In this document: piece after piece, positions 12,779 through 21,072 of the stretch
Position numbering within the stretch: the first letter of the stretch is position 1
Layout of the letters: each line of letters begins with the position of its first letter
Source of the DNA: an uncultured Schlesneria sp.
GTDB taxonomy: Bacteria; Planctomycetota; Planctomycetia; Planctomycetales; Planctomycetaceae
NCBI GenBank assembly: GCA_903899985.1
Contig: CAIULL010000106.1
Coordinates: forward strand, 1 to 64,000
Direction of reading: 5' to 3'
Length of the DNA stretch: 64,000 nucleotides
Translations under genes and position numbers: made by a program
The notes under the pieces: generated by a model
What the model was told of the DNA's origin: nothing
The model's database searches: none
Seen by the model: the letters and a program-made list of their open reading frames with translations, nothing else

Positions 12779-15700
12779 TCAGGCTTTGCCTTTGCGGTCT
12801 GACGGGGGTTGTTTCCACTGCTTCAGTTGTTGACGCAGTTCTTTCAAGCTGAGGGCTGGAATCGGAAGGTGCAGTTGTGGTTCGGCGTCGGGGGGAGCGG
12901 TTTCGCCCGATTCGTGAACTCGGTTCAGTTCTTCTTCCAGCGTTCTCAGCCAGGCGGGGATGTCGATGCCCGAACCGGAGGTTGTTTTCAGGTATTCTTC
13001 CACAGAAATCTGCAGGGCCTGGAATGAGGGTGATTCCTCGCGACCTTTTTCTGCGTCTTCACAGGCAGGTCGGATTCTGGCCAGCATATGATTGACCGAA
13101 AGCGGTTTGACGAATCGTTCTTCCAGGTGATTTGCCACAGAGGGCATTCGCATTCCGTACTTCTTCTGAAGTGATTCCAGCTGCTGTAAGTGTCCGTCAG
13201 CCATCTCTTCGGTCTTGAGCGAGAAGACATCTTCCCAGATTGTCGCCGCTTCGGGTTTGCCGAGGCGAGCCAGCACTTCATGCGCAACCGTGACGGGAAG
13301 CATGTTCCAGGCGTCTCGGTCGTACGAGGTTTCCAGTCTCAAGAAGTCGAGCAGCGAATAGAAGTGTTCGCCGTAGTCTGACTGAGTCGTCGTGGTGTTG
13401 TATTCGAGGAACCGATCGAATTTCTCGACGACAACCTGGTAGATCAGGTTCAGTTGCTCGGCCACGTCGTCACGTTCGATTTTTCCGCTGCGAAGGTCAT
13501 CCAGCAATTTGATGGGATGAAGTGGATCTTCGTTTTCTTCCAGGTGTTCGAGAAAATGCTCGACGCCGCTATGCAGGATCGCGCGGACATTTCCCAGTGT
13601 CAGCAAGCGGGCGTTCAGGACGTAGGAACCATATGTTTTGACGAACTCGGCAGTTTCTTCCCAAAGTGGTTCGACCTTCAACGCTTCGACGGTTGATAAT
13701 CGCATCGTGTTACTGTGTTCCAGCCACTGATCGAGATAGTTCTCGACGATCGTTCCGACGATTTCGATCAGATCCTCGTCACTGAAACGACCTCCTTTCC
13801 ACTCGCCGGAGGCTTTGATGACGCATTCGAGCGTGTATCGCAGGGCGATTCGAAACAGGCGATCGAATTCGGTGACGGCCATCCCTTTGGGCCGCGATGC
13901 ACGTTCCATCTGGCGAGCGGTTTTCAGCAGATGCCACGTTTCGCGCAGCAAGCCTAATTGAGGCAGGTGTGCCAGCAGAAAGCGAATCACCATCTGCATC
14001 GAGCGAGCGGTCAAGATCTGCCTGGGCTCGCCACCATGTTCAAGCGGTACATAGAGCAGGGGTTTGCTTTGCAGGGATCGCAGCAATCCGGGAAGGACTC
14101 GACGGACTTCTTCTTCATTTCGCTGCATGACGCCGCGATAGATATCGATGATCCGCACGTCGTCGGCGTTCGTCTTGACGGTGTCGTCGGCAGGAGAAAG
14201 TGCACAGGCGAGGCACCACTGCGCCGACCGGCAGCTTAGCGCTGTCTGGATCGTCGTCTGGATCAAAAACAGTTTCGTCTGCAGTTGCGTATCGTATTCA
14301 ATGTTGACGTCGTGTTCGGCTGTCGCTTCACCGATTTCCTGCTTCCACAGGTTATCAATCAAGCGACTTAAATCGGCCTGGACTTCGATAGAATGTCCCA
14401 GCCAGTGGCGTAGGGAGTCGGCCTGAGCTTGTTTCGATTCACGCACGGCGTTCGATTGTGAATCCACAGGGACCAGTTCACGTTCGACGGCAAGGGTCGC
14501 TCCCATTTGCCAAAGCTGCGCGATCGTTCGCAGGAACTTCAGTCTCGGTTCCAGTTGCTTTTCAATCAATTCAAATTCAGTCTCGCGATGGAAGGCGGGT
14601 CGATCGTCCATCGTCTCGCCTTCCTGTCCATCGTCGGCACTATCGCGATAGACGACACCTTCGTAGGCGGCATCAAACAGTTCATCTTCTTCGTCACGTG
14701 CGACATCGTCGGTGTCATGGGCCAGTTCCTCGCCATGATCCGGCTTATGTGGTTTACTGGAATCGGGCAACACGGGGACTGTCGGTGCGGACCACAGTTC
14801 GCCAGCGTTGGCTTCGAGATAATCGAACATACGGCGAATCAATGGCCACGGGTCGTCCTTGGTGATTGAACCGTTGTCGACAACGATTCCCATCCACCAG
14901 AGTAATAAATCCTCGAACGACATGTGTCCCGCTTCCAGCCCGACCTCTTCCTGCTGGCTGAGCCATTGCATCAGCAGTCCGAGTGCCGCGACCGTGTCAC
15001 GACGTTCCAGCAAAGCCGACACAACCTGTGCATAGGCTTTGGCACTTTCGAACTGCGCGACGTGTTCTCGCCAGAACTGGATGTCACCCGCTGCTTCGCC
15101 AGCCGTTCTCCATTCGGAAAGTGCCTGTGCGACATGGGACGCCGAATCGAGGCTTTCGCGTGCGGCGACACGAGGCAGGTCGTTAACGGTGGATGATCCA
15201 AACTTATCCCAGAATTCGGCGAGAGATTCGTAACGGAACGAGATCGCGTCGGCCATCTTCGAGTCACCACGAGCGGCGGCTTCCTCCCACGTTCGCGTGT
15301 AGGCGTCAAGTAATGCTTCCATGATATGTAACAGGATTTCAACTCGCTGATCGGGAACACTGTCTTCGCGAGACGAAAAGAGAGGGAATAATCCTTGAAA
15401 ACCAAGAATATTCCAGGGGTCGACCAGCGCCCCGCATTCTATTCCCCGATGAAGATATTCTTCGGCTTCTCCCAGAAGTCGAAACGCATCGGCGACTTTT
15501 CCGAGTTCGATCACACGGCGTGCTCCGTGAACTCGGCAGAGAACTTCACATTCAAATCTTGCCGATGCACACGGGATGACTGCCGCCTGTCGCAGGCTCG
15601 CTTCCGGATAGCCCATGCGAGCGAACAAATGTGCCAATTGTCGCCGCTGGACTTGTTGCGTCCCGTAGTTGGCCAGATACATATTCAGCGACTGACGAAC

Positions 15701-16813
15701 ATGTCCGAACGGTTGTCGCGTCGCTTTGGCGTGCTTCTTCAGCCGTTTTGCTCGTTGCCCCGTTGCACTTTCCAGCAGCCATGAATAAAACCGGTCGCGT
15801 TGACGTGCCACGCGCGGCAGAAGCGACGTCAGCGTCACGCTCGAATCATGACACTCGGGACCGTCACCGCTGATCGCCGATGCCATGAGAATCGTGCCGC
15901 ACAACACGGCAGCCATGTCAAACAGAACTTCTTCTGACGCGACCCGCTTTTGTTTCTGCTGCCAGTCAATCAGCGAATCGATAATCACTCGACGAATCAC
16001 GAAACGTCGATAATTACCCTTAATGTCAATCTGGTGCGGATCCCATTCACCGAACAGGTAATTGGTCCGTTTGTTGACCGGATGGGAATGATCGTGGGCC
16101 CGGGGATCGAGAGCCAGCTCGTCCATCTTATTGATATCAAAATAAGCATCCGAAAGCATTTCTTCCGGGACTTCGTTCAGCAGTTCTAATGCTCGCTTGA
16201 TCAGCGTTTCATACGGACCATGTGCGACTCCGGCATTGCGGAGATACAGCGGCCAGGGGCGGACCCGTTCATGGGGATAAAGGTCCATTTTCCTGCCGTT
16301 TTCCAGCACGGCAACCGGACGGAAGCCAACGAAATCGTTCAGGCGATGGAGAGCACCTTGAATGATCCCTTCCCGGTCATCCCAGGGGGCTCCTTGCTGC
16401 AAAACTGCTTCGAAGACTTTTGCCAGGAAGAACGGTTGCTCGAATTCCGCATCTTTCAGATGCGCAAGCAGATCACGGTGATGCACGCGGTAGGCAGGAA
16501 GCACATCAGAAAACACCAGCTTCAGTACCGCCTGTGCCTGAGCGACGTCGCTAAAGGCAGGTGCGGTCTGATGTAAGTGCTCAAGTAACTGCTGTAACGC
16601 GTCCGGAGCCTTCGACCAGGTGACACTGGCGATGAATTCATTAAGCTGTCGCTGAAATTTTGTGTCTGGGCGGCCCCCAGAGAAATTCAAATACCCGAGC
16701 AATTCTTGTGCTGTCGTCAAATCGGATTGGGAAAGATTCAAAGTCCCGGTCCCCCGGCCATAAATGTCGTCAGCCAACTGTGGCAGTCTTTGCCGAAGAG
16801 ACAATCCCTTCAA
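12779..16813 (-). CDS. Very large unrecognised protein, mostly helical (1344 aa)
   Basis: I do not recognise this protein. It has no signal peptide and no membrane segment, and it is rich in Leu, Glu, Ala, Gln and Arg with a strongly helical character throughout, suggesting a cytoplasmic repeat or scaffold protein. Around residues 690-745 there is a very acidic low-complexity stretch (HDTDDVARDEEDELFDAAYE) that splits it into two halves. Near the start is a YGRGTGTLNLS segment. The only workable start is TTG at 16813, because an in-frame stop (taa) lies seven codons upstream; a clear Shine-Dalgarno is missing, so the true start may be slightly internal. It is divergent from the ExbD-like gene pair across 399 bp, which may mean shared regulation. 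Confidence 0.75.
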   Translation of the reverse strand: MKGLSLRQRLPQLADDIYGRGTGTLNLSQSDLTTAQELLGYLNFSGGRPDTKFQRQLNEFIASVTWSKAPDALQQLLEHLHQTAPAFSDVAQAQAVLKLVFSDVLPAYRVHHRDLLAHLKDAEFEQPFFLAKVFEAVLQQGAPWDDREGIIQGALHRLNDFVGFRPVAVLENGRKMDLYPHERVRPWPLYLRNAGVAHGPYETLIKRALELLNEVPEEMLSDAYFDINKMDELALDPRAHDHSHPVNKRTNYLFGEWDPHQIDIKGNYRRFVIRRVIIDSLIDWQQKQKRVASEEVLFDMAAVLCGTILMASAISGDGPECHDSSVTLTSLLPRVARQRDRFYSWLLESATGQRAKRLKKHAKATRQPFGHVRQSLNMYLANYGTQQVQRRQLAHLFARMGYPEASLRQAAVIPCASARFECEVLCRVHGARRVIELGKVADAFRLLGEAEEYLHRGIECGALVDPWNILGFQGLFPLFSSREDSVPDQRVEILLHIMEALLDAYTRTWEEAAARGDSKMADAISFRYESLAEFWDKFGSSTVNDLPRVAARESLDSASHVAQALSEWRTAGEAAGDIQFWREHVAQFESAKAYAQVVSALLERRDTVAALGLLMQWLSQQEEVGLEAGHMSFEDLLLWWMGIVVDNGSITKDDPWPLIRRMFDYLEANAGELWSAPTVPVLPDSSKPHKPDHGEELAHDTDDVARDEEDELFDAAYEGVVYRDSADDGQEGETMDDRPAFHRETEFELIEKQLEPRLKFLRTIAQLWQMGATLAVERELVPVDSQSNAVRESKQAQADSLRHWLGHSIEVQADLSRLIDNLWKQEIGEATAEHDVNIEYDTQLQTKLFLIQTTIQTALSCRSAQWCLACALSPADDTVKTNADDVRIIDIYRGVMQRNEEEVRRVLPGLLRSLQSKPLLYVPLEHGGEPRQILTARSMQMVIRFLLAHLPQLGLLRETWHLLKTARQMERASRPKGMAVTEFDRLFRIALRYTLECVIKASGEWKGGRFSDEDLIEIVGTIVENYLDQWLEHSNTMRLSTVEALKVEPLWEETAEFVKTYGSYVLNARLLTLGNVRAILHSGVEHFLEHLEENEDPLHPIKLLDDLRSGKIERDDVAEQLNLIYQVVVEKFDRFLEYNTTTTQSDYGEHFYSLLDFLRLETSYDRDAWNMLPVTVAHEVLARLGKPEAATIWEDVFSLKTEEMADGHLQQLESLQKKYGMRMPSVANHLEERFVKPLSVNHMLARIRPACEDAEKGREESPSFQALQISVEEYLKTTSGSGIDIPAWLRTLEEELNRVHESGETAPPDAEPQLHLPIPALSLKELRQQLKQWKQPPSDRKGKA

Positions 16814-17212
16814 ACAAAGGTTCTCAGTTCTTTACATAGAATACGAGACTTGTCATCCCGTAAGCAAACCTGTTCGCACGTGAATTGAAGACAATCTGAA
16901 TTGTGTTGCCAGTCCCGAAGGTTTTGACTCATTCCATCGTCCGACGATGCCGATTGTTCCGATAAGTCTAAAAGCGCCGACTTTTCATTTGATCCTCAGT
17001 CAACTTGGTCAATGGGGTGACATAGGGATTATGGGCGGTCTGTGGGCGTTTTTGGAATCGTAAGTCATTATGCAGGCATGAGTTCGGGTTGAGTCTGGCA
17101 TAAGTCTCCGCGAATGATTCGCCATGGATTGAATGTTCACGGTTGAATCACTCGTGCGACTGACAGCAATCAGCTCGGATGAATCCATCAGCAAGAAATA
17201 CAAGTACTCGCG
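16814..17212. other. Divergent intergenic region, 399 bp
   Basis: It separates the 1344-residue protein gene from the ExbD-like pair and must hold both promoters. I see no convincing -35/-10 pair, terminator or repeat, and no small gene. Confidence 0.4.
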
Positions 17213-19900
17213 ATGAGCGGTCGAACGAAGGAAACTCATTCTTTTAAAGTCTTTCCGTTCCTCGCCGTGCTGATTTGCACGATGGGATCGCTGATTTTCT
17301 TGTTACTTGTGACGACGCTGAAAATTCGACAGAAGGAAGCGGAATTCGCGGCATCTGAGCGTGCTTACCGCAACATCGAGATTGCCGAAGCCGAAAAAGC
17401 GGCCGAAATCAGCAAGCCCGTTGCCAAGCCAGCCCCTCAGCCTCCCAAAGTCGTGGCTCGGCCAGCCCCCAAGCCCGTTTTCAAGCCGGTCGCACCACCC
17501 GTTGACGACGGCTATGAACTTGCCCTGGCGGAACGCCAGCGAGAACTGACGGATTTAAAGGCGAAATGGCAGAGCCGTGCAGACCAGCTTGCGTCCGAGC
17601 GTGAACAACGACTTCGCGTTCTCACGTTACGTCGACAACAGGTCCAAGAATCGCTGGAAAAAACGGAATCACTTAATTCCGGCATCCTGCAGCTGGAAAA
17701 CAATCTGGGTGAACTTGCCGGAGAAGCGGCCGCCGAAACTGATCCCAAGGAAGATGTCGAGCGGGTTCTCGTCGAGCAGCAGATCCTGCAAATGAAACGG
17801 CGTCTGCGTGCCGCACAGATTGCTGACGCGACGGAGCAAAACGATCAATTTCAAGTCGTGCCGTTTGACCCGCAAACCGGGACAACTCGACGACCAATCT
17901 TCATCGAGTGTTCTGCTGCAGGAATTCGATTCTTGCCCGAAGACATCCTGATTACCGCGAAAGATCTCGAAGGATTCACGCCGAAAGCAAATCCCATCGC
18001 TGCGGGGACCGGGGCGCTGATCAATTACTGGAACGCGATCAACTTGAAACAGCGGAACCCTCGGAGTGAACCCGAGCCGTACGTGCTGATTCTCGTGAGA
18101 CCTGAAGGTGTTGTCGCCTATTACGTTGCTTTGCGAATGCTTGAGCCGATTCGGACGTCACAAGGTTATGAACTGATCGAAGAATCGACCGTACTAAAAC
18201 TGCCGGATGTTGACAGTGGTGCAAAAACCGCCTGTCAGACTGCCGTCAGTCGGCTATTTTCCGAGCGTGACAATATTGCTCGTTCCGCCCTGATGACTGG
18301 AAGCGGTGGAAGCGTCTTCGGAGGTGCCCCCGGTCGCCGAGGCTCCGGTGGTGGAGGTCCAGGCGGTGGCGGAGGCTCGGGCGGCGGACGACCAGGTGGA
18401 GGTGTCGCCGGCAATTCTGGCTCAGGTAATGGGGGGCCGGGCAATGGGGGGCCGGGCAATGGGGGACCGGGCGGAGGGCCCATGTTTGGTGCCGTGCGAG
18501 GCTCCGGACCCGGTGGCACCGACGATTCCGGACAATCGGGTGGAAACGGCTTCACGTTGAACGATCTGACGGGGGGAGATAATTCTGTCGGATCGCGTAG
18601 CTGGGAACGGGTTGAAAACTTCCAGGGCCGTCCACGCGGGCAATCTCGTGGAAACGAAGTCGCGGGGGGCTTCGGTGGCGAATCGGGAGGAACATACGGA
18701 GGGGGTGGATCGGGAGCACGTCGTGGTGCCGATGCAGGAGCCGATACCGGAAGTGGTGACGGCTTCGAAGGTGGATCTGGCGACGGAACTTCTCGTGGTT
18801 CTTACGCCGGCGTCCGGGGCCGAACGGGCGGCGGAACGGGTGGCAGTCCCGGTGGGGAAAACGAAGACGGAGCCGACGAGGGATCCGACGGTGCAGCCAC
18901 TGGCGGAACTTCCGGTGGATCAGGTGGCCGATATGCTGCGGGATCAGGTGGTGGACCTGGCGGCGGAATCGTTGGCGGGTCTGGTGGTGGAAATGGTCAA
19001 GGCTCAGCAACGTCTGACCGGGGCAACTCACGAATGTCTCAAGGATCGGGCAGTCGATTCTCCGGTGGAAATGGTTCTGCGAACGCGAACGGAACCTCCT
19101 TTAAAGGATCGACCTCGGGCGGGGCCGGATCGGGTCAATCGTCGGAGGGTTGGGACGAGTCAGAGCCAGGAATGCCGATCGGACAACGTCCGAACCGCAA
19201 GTCCGCGAAGTCAAAGCCGGGGAGCGACGGAGAATCCAGCGGACCTGAGGGAGATTCGGAAGGAGACGGCCGTTACGTGCAAGGTGATGGGAGCTCCGGT
19301 TCGCGATCCGGTGGTCAATCTCGTTCGTCCGGTTTATCGGACAGCGGTTCATCCTCACCCCGTTTTTCGCATACCAAAGGATCTTCGACGCGGGCACCGC
19401 ATGCCGGCGAAAGGCCAAGCAAGAAAAACAATGATGACGCAGACAAGCCTCTGGAGCCTGAAATGCTTGCGGGCCGGCGCTGGGGATACTGCGAGCCAGG
19501 GGCCAGTATCGGGTTTGAGCGGGAAGTTCGCGTTGACGTCTCCGAAGATAAGCTGCTGATCGCCGAAAAGTTTGCAATTCCCGTGGGGCAGGGGGAGTCG
19601 AAGCAGGAAACGTTGGAATTGTTCGCCACAGCACTCGACGCCTATTCTCATGAATGGGGTCGCCCGCCGCAGGGATTCTTCTGGGCACCACGATTGAAAT
19701 TCATCGTGAAACCCGAAGGAAATGGTCACTACGAGCAGGTCAACGCCATGATGACTCGGGCCGGTTTGGCGACGTCGCACGAATTCTCGAAACAAAATGA
19801 GACGCTCGAATTTGGCCGTGACACGGCGAAAACGACAAAGCCAACAAAAAAGCCTGCACTCAAGGCTGCTTCCTCACCCAAAGCGGGAGCCAACCGATGA
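17213..19900 (+). CDS. Membrane-anchored protein with coiled coil and long Gly-rich linker (895 aa)
   Basis: A single transmembrane helix near the N-terminus (about 14-36, FPFLAVLICTMGSLIFLLLV) is followed by a Pro/Ala/Lys stretch (60-95), a coiled coil (about 100-195), a globular part (about 215-340), ~350 residues of Gly/Ser/Arg low complexity (about 360-730) and a C-terminal globular domain (about 750-870). The topology, with a short cytoplasmic start, one helix and a large periplasmic part, matches ExbD/TolR/MotB-type proteins. The segment YVLILVRPEGVVAYYVAL resembles the periplasmic ExbD/TolR strand-helix unit, and the C-terminus repeats that pattern (KFIVKPEGNGHYEQVNAMM). The gene overlaps the next one by 4 bases (ATGA). 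I cannot name a function. Confidence 0.8.
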   Translation: MSGRTKETHSFKVFPFLAVLICTMGSLIFLLLVTTLKIRQKEAEFAASERAYRNIEIAEAEKAAEISKPVAKPAPQPPKVVARPAPKPVFKPVAPPVDDGYELALAERQRELTDLKAKWQSRADQLASEREQRLRVLTLRRQQVQESLEKTESLNSGILQLENNLGELAGEAAAETDPKEDVERVLVEQQILQMKRRLRAAQIADATEQNDQFQVVPFDPQTGTTRRPIFIECSAAGIRFLPEDILITAKDLEGFTPKANPIAAGTGALINYWNAINLKQRNPRSEPEPYVLILVRPEGVVAYYVALRMLEPIRTSQGYELIEESTVLKLPDVDSGAKTACQTAVSRLFSERDNIARSALMTGSGGSVFGGAPGRRGSGGGGPGGGGGSGGGRPGGGVAGNSGSGNGGPGNGGPGNGGPGGGPMFGAVRGSGPGGTDDSGQSGGNGFTLNDLTGGDNSVGSRSWERVENFQGRPRGQSRGNEVAGGFGGESGGTYGGGGSGARRGADAGADTGSGDGFEGGSGDGTSRGSYAGVRGRTGGGTGGSPGGENEDGADEGSDGAATGGTSGGSGGRYAAGSGGGPGGGIVGGSGGGNGQGSATSDRGNSRMSQGSGSRFSGGNGSANANGTSFKGSTSGGAGSGQSSEGWDESEPGMPIGQRPNRKSAKSKPGSDGESSGPEGDSEGDGRYVQGDGSSGSRSGGQSRSSGLSDSGSSSPRFSHTKGSSTRAPHAGERPSKKNNDDADKPLEPEMLAGRRWGYCEPGASIGFEREVRVDVSEDKLLIAEKFAIPVGQGESKQETLELFATALDAYSHEWGRPPQGFFWAPRLKFIVKPEGNGHYEQVNAMMTRAGLATSHEFSKQNETLEFGRDTAKTTKPTKKPALKAASSPKAGANR
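18428..18472. repeat. 15-bp tandem repeat x3 inside the Gly-rich linker
   Basis: Three consecutive units of aatggggggccgggc (the last with one change, aatgggggaccgggc) encode GNGGP-GNGGP-GNGGP. They show that the linker grows and shrinks by slippage. Confidence 0.85.
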
Positions 19901-21072
19901 GTCGTCGTCGCCCGAAAGGTGAATTGCAGTTTGGTTCTGACTCGTTCCTCGACGTCGTTGCGAACATCGTCGGTATCTTGATCATTCTGATCGTGATTGC
20001 CGGTTTGCACGTCAGCAAGATCCCCGTTGTCTTCCTCCCTCCTGGGACCCCTTTATTAAACGAACCCATCTCTGAACTGGCCCGATATGCTCCTGGAAAA
20101 AACCATGAGTCCGAAGAGGCGACTGAGGAACCGCAGCAGCAAGAATTGACAATGCAGGAACCGGAAGAAGAACCGGAAGCGGAGCCGGAACCACAGGCGA
20201 TTCCGATACGGCCTCCTTTGCCCGAGCTGGTTGCTCCACAAGAGCTGGTGGAAATGACGAAGGAACTGGAAACAGTGCTCGCCTCGATCACCAAAGAGGA
20301 ACTGGCCCTGGCGGCTCGCGTACAGCAATCGAGTCTGCGTCAGGCCGAATTAACCGAACGTCAAAAGGCGGTCAAAGAGATGTTGGCCGTGTCGACGCAG
20401 CAACTCGACGCCAGCAAAATGCGGAAGGCAAAAGCGGTTGCCGATCTGGAACTCGCCAGAAAAGACCTGGAAAGACTGAAGCTTCAGATCGATGAGATTG
20501 AAGACAAGCCGGCGAATGTCCAGACGCTGGAACACAAGATCACACCGATCAGCCGCGTCGTGAACGGTAATGAAAAGCACTATCGTCTGGAACGAAATCG
20601 CGTTTCCGAAGTACCGGTTGACGAACTGGTTTCACGACTGAAGGATCAGATTCAAAAACGGAAAGACTGGTTGGTAAAAACTCGTCAGCACCAGGGGCAA
20701 ATCGGGCCAATCGAAGGCTTCAACATGCAGTACCTGGTGCGAGTGGAGACGCTTTCGGGATTGGACGAACTTCGAGCGGGACATGGTGGGTATCGGATCA
20801 GTCTTTCCAGCTGGCAAATTCATCCTGAACCAGACACCAAGGGAGAGACCGCTGAAGTTGCGTTACGCAAGGGCTCGCGGTTCTATCAGTCGATTCTTGG
20901 CGCGGCACCGGATACGACCCTGACCTTCTGGGTCTATCCCGATAGCTATGCACTCTATCGGAAGCTGCAAAAGTTCACGCATGATCATGGATTTTCCGTT
21001 GCAGGCCGACCGCTCCCTGCTGGAGTTCCCATCTCGGGCTCGCCAAACGGTTCTAAATCGGCGAGCCAATAG
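19897..21072 (+). CDS. ExbD/TolR-like membrane protein (391 aa)
   Basis: The start reads FGSDSFLDVVANIVGILIIL, with one transmembrane helix at about 18-41 carrying an Asp (D20) at its N-terminal edge. ExbD, TolR and MotB place the essential proton-channel Asp in the same way. It is followed by an acidic Pro/Glu-rich stretch (65-115), a coiled coil (about 120-205) and a periplasmic domain ending with a strand-helix unit (TLTFWVYPDSYALYRKLQKF). It overlaps the upstream gene by ATGA, so the two are translationally coupled and likely form a heteromer. No ExbB/TolQ/MotA-type partner lies next to it, which is unusual. Confidence 0.82.
   Translation: MSRRRPKGELQFGSDSFLDVVANIVGILIILIVIAGLHVSKIPVVFLPPGTPLLNEPISELARYAPGKNHESEEATEEPQQQELTMQEPEEEPEAEPEPQAIPIRPPLPELVAPQELVEMTKELETVLASITKEELALAARVQQSSLRQAELTERQKAVKEMLAVSTQQLDASKMRKAKAVADLELARKDLERLKLQIDEIEDKPANVQTLEHKITPISRVVNGNEKHYRLERNRVSEVPVDELVSRLKDQIQKRKDWLVKTRQHQGQIGPIEGFNMQYLVRVETLSGLDELRAGHGGYRISLSSWQIHPEPDTKGETAEVALRKGSRFYQSILGAAPDTTLTFWVYPDSYALYRKLQKFTHDHGFSVAGRPLPAGVPISGSPNGSKSASQ

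Follow-up and report, generated by a model that had tools for sequence, protein, structure and literature searches.

Two unlike proteins as candidate ExbD/TolR-type axle subunits of a proposed ExbB/ExbD-kind motor in Planctomycetia

The window analyzed here is a stretch of 64,000 nucleotides from contig CAIULL010000106.1 of an uncultured Schlesneria sp. (assembly GCA_903899985.1; 8.0 Mb, 296 contigs), and it contains two coupled genes that we call P1 and P2. We read their products, with a probability of roughly 0.68, as two unlike, highly diverged ExbD/TolR-type axle subunits of an ion-driven motor in the membrane that resembles the 5:2 ExbB/ExbD machines. In Planctomycetia a three-gene cassette, U-P1-P2, would encode it, U being a ring protein of the MotA/TolQ/ExbB family whose C-terminus extends into a long coiled-coil tail. 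Direct support comes from the linkage of these genes, the family match of U, conserved residues, the fold resemblance of P1 and a pattern of ring replacement; from these we infer a P1/P2 heterodimer, a ring pentamer, and the stoichiometry, ion flow, rotation and cellular role that such a motor would have.

An earlier reading of the window from its letters alone (the original prediction) described two genes overlapping by ATGA, each with one N-terminal helix, and both the open reading frames and the structure models bear this out. The P1 model has a single N-terminal helix at residues 16-64 followed by a coiled coil (mean predicted local distance difference test score, pLDDT, 61.8), and the P2 model has a confident helix at 15-40, a coiled coil and a C-terminal domain (mean pLDDT 80.5). 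The layout of P1 is helix, coiled coil, TolR-like domain, glycine-rich linker and ExbD-like domain. P2 was matched in 104 genomes and its locus read in 100 (G023, G034, G058 and G068 being left out); the proposed check for orthologues in which the two genes are unlinked found them adjacent on one strand in 99 of those 100, and P1 and P2 are therefore real genes. The features of the pair are as follows.

17213..19900 (+): P1, candidate first axle subunit, membrane protein of 895 residues (open reading frame, model, structure matches)
17258..17326 (+): P1 transmembrane helix region, residues 16-38 (model helix from 16; in register with the P2 helix)
17264..17266 (+): P1 codon 18, Ala, equivalent of the ExbD/TolR/MotB proton-site Asp
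17852..18181 (+): P1 periplasmic domain 1, residues 214-323, TolR-like fold
18302..19432 (+): P1 glycine-rich linker, residues 364-740, predicted disordered
18428..18472 (+): three tandem copies of a 15-bp unit that encodes GNGGP
19511..19804 (+): P1 periplasmic domain 2, residues 767-864, ExbD-like fold
19897..21072 (+): P2, candidate second axle subunit, membrane protein of 391 residues with the proton-site Asp (open reading frame, model)
19939..20016 (+): P2 transmembrane helix, residues 15-40 (model)
19951..19953 (+): P2 codon 19, Asp, candidate proton-binding residue
20239..20505 (+): P2 long coiled coil, residues 115-203 (model)
20563..21069 (+): P2 periplasmic C-terminal domain, residues 223-391 (pLDDT mostly at least 90)

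The absence of an ExbB partner, which the original prediction had stressed, holds for the immediate neighborhood in the window but not for the locus in general. A gene of approximately 400-500 codons, U, usually lies upstream of P1 in orthologous loci: in 89 genomes, including that of the window and setting aside the family f2 described below, U is upstream in 76, downstream in 2, convergent in 1 and unlinked in 10 (79/89 linked), the unlinked cases including the window genome, G003 (without P1 and P2) and G071 (cut by contig ends). Among named records, 58 loci hold U together with P1 (U upstream in 52, downstream in 6), and a further 10 hold P1 without U, and 6 of these begin no more than 350 bp from a contig start. 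Since U is mostly upstream of P1, and P1 and P2 are all but invariably adjacent, the usual cassette is U-P1-P2. In four orthologues the common form of the ring protein, U1, scores 47.0-55.3 bits against Pfam MotA_ExbB (PF01618), and a second form found in the window genome, U2, scores 41.1 bits (cut-off 22.9).

The two forms are told apart by the motifs GTVxGI and AFDTT in U1 and GTVxHF and AFNTT in U2, and the residues at the two marked positions of U are G-D in 69 copies, H-N in 16, G-G in 3, Y-N in 1 and G-N in 1, the remaining copies being two with other residues and lost motif residues and one that is cut. The 17 U2 rings, counting the Y-N copy, form one clade with full support (Shimodaira-Hasegawa-like approximate likelihood ratio test, SH-aLRT, 100) in a quick tree; all our trees are of this quick kind (LG+G4) and have many open branches. 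U1 and U2 both have a long C-terminal coiled coil and, by eye, a common end motif. U1 and U2 share two aligned threonines with 5/6 other MotA/ExbB proteins of the window genome, and we take these to be the pore threonines of ExbB/TolQ structures. In most U1 copies the residue next to the second threonine is an Asp; at that place five other MotA/ExbB proteins encoded in the window genome have hydrophobic residues.

In the window the usual site of U1 lies between P1 and a divergently transcribed neighbor, P3, the starts of P3 and P1 being 399 bp apart.

12779..16813 (-): P3, conserved neighbor of 1344 residues, divergent transcription; no support found for membership in the motor
16814..17212 (.): gap between P3 and P1, the usual U1 site in most relatives, U1 absent here

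This gap retains part of the sequence on its P3 side, being 71% identical over 132 bp to the gap between P3 and U1 in a relative, G002, and no remnant of U1 was found in it in six frames; nor did a genome search find U1 in the window genome. Figures from these searches for U are among the matches listed, and weaker U2-like rings could be missed. The U2 of the window genome is on another contig, C121, where 15 kb of surrounding sequence was read and showed no ExbD-like gene; elsewhere U2 can adjoin the P1/P2 pair. With U1 scored as intact by a motif script, the odd G052 ring passing as intact and f2 being excluded, the 85 P2-bearing genomes outside f2 comprise 67 with intact U1 only, 14 with U2 and no intact U1, 2 with both and 2 with neither, namely G041, whose U is cut by a contig end, and G061. 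U2 is thus present in 14 of 16 genomes without intact U1 versus 2 of 69 with it (Fisher 3.6e-12, relatedness ignored), and independent pairs give the same direction (6:0 with 3 ties, p 0.031; G041 is left out of the U1-loss pair test). A U2-type ring occurs in 17 genomes among the matches listed, 16 of which have the P1/P2 pair, the exception being G003 (89% complete). We infer that U2 replaces U1, in trans in the window clade, where U2 would be the partner of P1 and P2.

U1 copies that have lost pore residues occur in G012, G022 and G084, each with a U2-type ring as well. Loci L259:336-2162 and L232:5738-7231 show such linked degenerate rings (GLLGLVLGFI/AAFAPLA in G022; GLLGSALLTA/VALDPTI in G084), the U2-type ring being elsewhere.

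Another source for a ring would be an ordinary ExbB borrowed by the window pair, for example the 306-residue ExbB on contig C237. The window genome has seven MotA/ExbB genes, and that on C237 has no neighboring ExbD in the stretch read, the contig ending approximately 2 kb downstream of it; yet ExbDs without an adjacent ExbB on contigs C35 and C76 could be its partners, and the tail and C-terminal motif of U1 are common to U2, not to the C237 ExbB. We regard such borrowing as highly improbable.

Conserved residues also speak for the motor reading. The Asp proposed for the proton site of P2 (in SFLDVV) is present, as are the other motifs that the original prediction quoted, and is invariant in 78/78 orthologues, whereas among 55 P1 the equivalent position holds 45 Ala, 8 Asp and 2 Thr. 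P2 has the helix (15-40) and acidic residue (Asp19) of ExbD/TolR proteins, and P1 in the window has the helix but Ala. The N-terminal halves of P1 and P2 are homologous, Asp19 standing opposite Ala18 (hhalign E 1.1e-14, a value that the coiled coil may inflate), and the P1 helix carries an ExbD-like FPFL.V motif. This homology bears on an alternative in which the axle is a P2 homodimer carrying two Asps, while P1, like TonB or TolA, binds the outside of the ring as a force transducer with its linker and end domain as an arm. The layout of P1 (helix, linker of up to 400 residues, terminal domain) and the lack of Asp in 47/55 P1 would suit such a role; against it, the P1 helix is homologous to that of P2 in register and keeps the ExbD-like motif, Asp is at the exact site in 8/55, the P1 helix of G054 is wholly of P2 type, and a peripheral helix has no evident need for P2-like features. 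We consider it unlikely, if a serious competitor.

In raw counts, the Asp of P1 goes mostly with the U2 type of ring. When the helix columns are removed before the P1+P2 tree is built, the P1 Asp state requires at least 7 changes, and the tree cannot separate gain of Asp from loss. Seven of the 8 P1-Asp genomes combine U2 with the absence of intact U1, and the ring of the remaining one, G052, is an odd U1-side form (GFVGTIGGLA/TAFDATV). Intact U1 is present in 67/76 genomes without P1 Asp, so that it is absent in 7/8 P1-Asp genomes versus 9/76 others (Fisher 1.8e-5, relatedness ignored; the P1 residue of G071 is unavailable), and independent pairs run in the same direction without reaching significance (4:0, 1 tie, p 0.125). 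The clearest single case is a clade of nine rows from named metagenome-assembled genomes (MAGs; support 100), in which P1 has Ala in L102, L120 and L162 (U1 lies upstream in the latter two, and L102 runs into a contig end), while a nested clade of six rows (support 96) has P1 Asp and U2 downstream. Across 20 residues of the P1 helix (FPFL-A/D-VLVCTMGSLILLLLV), L120 and L119 differ solely at this residue, in step with the ring exchange. Two named records have P1 Asp and no linked U2: L114, which is of the G052 type, and L144, in whose locus no ring was found.

A U2-type ring is found together with P1 Ala in nine genomes, G000, G001, G004 and G005 (the window clade), G006, G007, G011, G012 and G084, of which G007 and G011 also hold intact U1 and G084 has the Y-N ring. 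The rule that ring and P1 strictly swap the Asp charge (G-D with Ala, H-N with Asp) was considered and rejected because these nine, as well as genomes whose U1 has Gly (G020, G045, G056) or Asn (G117), keep P1 Ala. At L170:7224-10145, the locus of G054, the wholly P2-type P1 helix (SDSFLDVLANMVGIL) puts Asp on both partners.

The family f2 lacks ring and residue together. P2 was read in 15/15 of its genomes and P1 in 14/15, with no U gene in the stretches read; searched genome-wide with U1, the 15 genomes give weak best matches (E 4e-16 to 4.5e-8). The helix motif is lacking in 15/15 P2 and 14/14 P1, which have by eye another helix-like N-terminus. The Asp motif is kept where a ring gene was found and missing where none was found. 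The retention of P2 in these 15 genomes, and of P1 in the 14 visible loci, with neither adjoining ring gene nor Asp motif, gives a precedent for a different account of the window lineage, namely that its pair is de-energized, P1 and P2 being static envelope proteins while U2 serves something else. U1 absent without remnant, U2 unlinked and P1 Ala kept in the window lineage would fit this account. The window clade, however, unlike f2, retains Asp19 of P2 and the full helix motif, and in the wider sample 16/17 genomes with a U2-type ring have the pair and 14/16 without intact U1 have U2, which makes a static pair, in our judgment, quite unlikely.

Fold comparison supports the ExbD/TolR assignment for P1. 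Its domain 1 resembles TolR (5by4; Z 6.2, root-mean-square deviation 3.1, 83/105 residues aligned) and domain 2 resembles ExbD (8p9r; Z 6.9, root-mean-square deviation 2.8, 71/74 residues aligned, 22% identity), with similar matches to 8vgd and 8vgc. Foldseek alone gave no match for P1 at E 0.001. As judged from the models, the resemblance of these domains to ExbD/TolR is supportive, short of decisive. The ExbD-type units of the original prediction find structural backing in two domains of P1, but the one it assigned to P2 is not visible. Foldseek returned nothing for P2 at E 0.001 or better, and the listed VIA-align matches of its C-terminal domain are to Argonaute (best, Z 5.4), S11, RuvC, actin-type and other folds, on which grounds a visible ExbD fold in P2 was rejected.

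Between the two P1 domains lies the long linker foreseen with its slippage-prone repeat, and both are there: pLDDT is below 50 nearly throughout residues 364-740, and the three copies of the 15-bp unit stand at 18428-18472. Among 55 aligned orthologues the interdomain stretch runs from 106 to 400 residues (median 248), the window holding the maximum of 400; its Gly content there is 34% (orthologue range 8-37%). In none of three close relatives were two or more copies of the 15-bp unit found, which fits slippage.

Several results weigh against an ExbD-kind axle, or against its operation in the window genome. For P1 domain 2 the unrelated YqgF (7.3) and Pelota (7.1) rank above ExbD, many ribosomal S11-type folds follow ExbD closely, and the P1 Z values are below 8, a range that the tool grades as possibly generic; for the P2 C-terminal domain there is no ExbD or TolR among the VIA-align matches listed. 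Pfam ExbD (PF02472) is unmatched by P1 and P2 (hmmscan, E up to 1), and a search of the window genome with this family at E up to 10 finds nine ExbDs above cut-off and one weak tenth, none of them at the P1/P2 locus. Alignment of P1 and P2 by hhalign to nine ExbD-like proteins of the same genome, all of which bear the Asp, is not significant (E 0.11 and 0.025; probabilities 0.5 and 1.9%), and in searches of PDB sequences with the P1 and P2 profiles the matched stretches are in the coiled-coil part (among 60 matches listed for each). Judged by sequence profiles, ExbD membership fails for both proteins. U2 is unlinked in the window genome, so that the case for its partnership there is drawn from the rest of the sample. 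Seven genomes combine U2 with a P1 Asp, but in the window clade U2 goes with Ala in P1; and G061 has the pair with no U1 or U2 found, two extra fetched stretches included.

The mechanism we propose is that the U ring surrounds an axle of P1 and P2 in the inner membrane, and that ions would pass via Asp19 of P2, plus the P1 Asp where present, past the pore threonines of the ring, producing movement. On the periplasmic side, P1 would transmit the force by way of one folded domain and then a long disordered tether to the distal ExbD-like domain, which could bind envelope partners. The adjacent ring gene is gone from the window lineage, the U2 on another contig probably serving in trans. More tentatively, and with the odds somewhat against us, we suggest that the motor may be asymmetric, with five ring subunits around a P1/P2 heterodimer that has a single carboxylate site, and that lineages may switch between one-site and two-site axles with ring exchange, the window clade then combining a new ring with a one-site axle.

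Among known systems, ExbB/ExbD and TolQ/TolR are closest: a MotA/TolQ/ExbB-family ring gene goes with a single-helix partner that has Asp at the helix start, the ring threonines match, and the P1 domains resemble ExbD and TolR. The cassette differs in having two unlike partners, both below Pfam ExbD detection and one, P1, usually without Asp, as well as long coiled coils, a tether inside P1 and a long ring tail. Heterologous tolR-like pairs beside tolQ-like genes have already been described in bacteria of the Planctomycetes-Verrucomicrobia-Chlamydiae (PVC) group (PMC12204202). In the portion of that account consulted, they share with our loci the ring gene, two unlike tolR-like partners and the superphylum; P1 and P2 are set apart from them by description, not being Pfam ExbDs, though the loci may overlap, and the same portion has no mention of one absent Asp or of ring replacement. 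The Myxococcus gliding motor AglRQS, according to the part of a review consulted, has one ring protein and two different MotB-like partners whose heterodimers are not yet established, AglQ and AglS both having the conserved Asp (PMC9389320) that P1 mostly lacks. TonB and TolA share with P1 the helix, long flexible linker and terminal domain; the P1 helix, however, is homologous to that of P2, and TonB/TolA transducers are characterized, in the text consulted, by an SHLS-type helix motif with His (PMC12204202).

Zorya was the candidate defense system. In PADLOC, ZorA2 models rank first for U1 (57.0 bits) and for the window genome's U2 (31.2 bits), there is a long tail behind the ring domain, and ZorA is among the PDB sequence matches. 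P1 and P2, in contrast, match no PADLOC model at E 0.01, and U1 falls far under the NCBIfam ZorA cut-offs (35.8 of 100; 18.7 of 700). With the ZorA2 matches of U1 and U2 under those cut-offs, and P1 and P2 lacking any PADLOC match, the assignment to Zorya was rejected. No family in Pfam or NCBIfam matches P1 or P2 above cut-off. Among the titles and openings of abstracts listed, none names the cassette, which is no proof of its absence from print, and the main text of PMC10632474 contains none of six motor terms. Within the portions of the literature consulted we found no mention of an Asp usually absent from one partner, of Asp going with ring replacement, or of joint absence of ring and motif. 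These three may be new; unlike partner pairs are known.

P2 is matched in 104/119 genomes, the window's own included, the closest named relatives in the P2 scan being Schlesneria MAGs; G220, of the same family, has no P2 match at E 1e-8. In a phylum sample of 199 genomes the strong P2 matches (E <1e-60) number 11 and belong without exception to the window's class; in two distant genomes weak matches cover the helix and coiled-coil part only. Of the original proposal, an energized or structural envelope complex specific to planctomycetes, the energized form has good support: within the genomes sampled the specificity stands, and the upstream ring gene of most relatives and the invariant P2 Asp speak for energization. 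It needs two refinements, in that the pair as a family is not partnerless and that P1 of the window has Ala. Six MAG records titled 'Candidatus Kuenenia stuttgartiensis' (L108, L121, L153, L156, L158, L160) also carry the P2 of the cassette; they cluster with Planctomycetia records under other names, and their titles look mislabeled.

P3 is likewise present in 104/119 genomes, the window's own included, and has no Pfam or NCBIfam match at E 1. Its expected co-conservation with the pair proves loose, P3 not being found in any of the 15 f2 genomes and being present in 12 genomes of family f3 that have no full-length P1/P2 match.

Paralogous three-gene cassettes occur at L171:8226-11803, L269:3132-6759, L270:4377-7936 and L271:2208-6038, in the order ring gene (with a zinc-ribbon-like N-terminus), P1-like gene, P2-like gene. 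Their motifs, read by eye and by script, show Ser at the place of the Asp in the P1-like protein (FPFLS, FPFMS; LPFLS in L271) and Asp kept in the P2-like protein (LDSLLDT, LDSLMDT; NSLMDT in L271). At L273:5413-10139 a ring gene is followed by two similar partners starting NFSFLDILACTVGAL, with P1-like helices and Asp in both.

In the part consulted, a review of 5:2 motors holds 10-fold rotational symmetry, derived from nominally identical subunits, to be 'almost certain to be a universal feature' (PMC9389320). A widespread motor with unlike axle chains, one of them usually without the ion-site Asp, would, if true, be a natural exception to that symmetry, a full turn of a one-site axle taking five steps of 72 degrees and not ten of 36. 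Natural pairs would then make the question of one site versus two testable. The cassette also presents an apparent replacement of a whole ring by a single distinct clade of ring genes, and it adds a candidate force-transducing complex to a phylum of unusual envelope biology.

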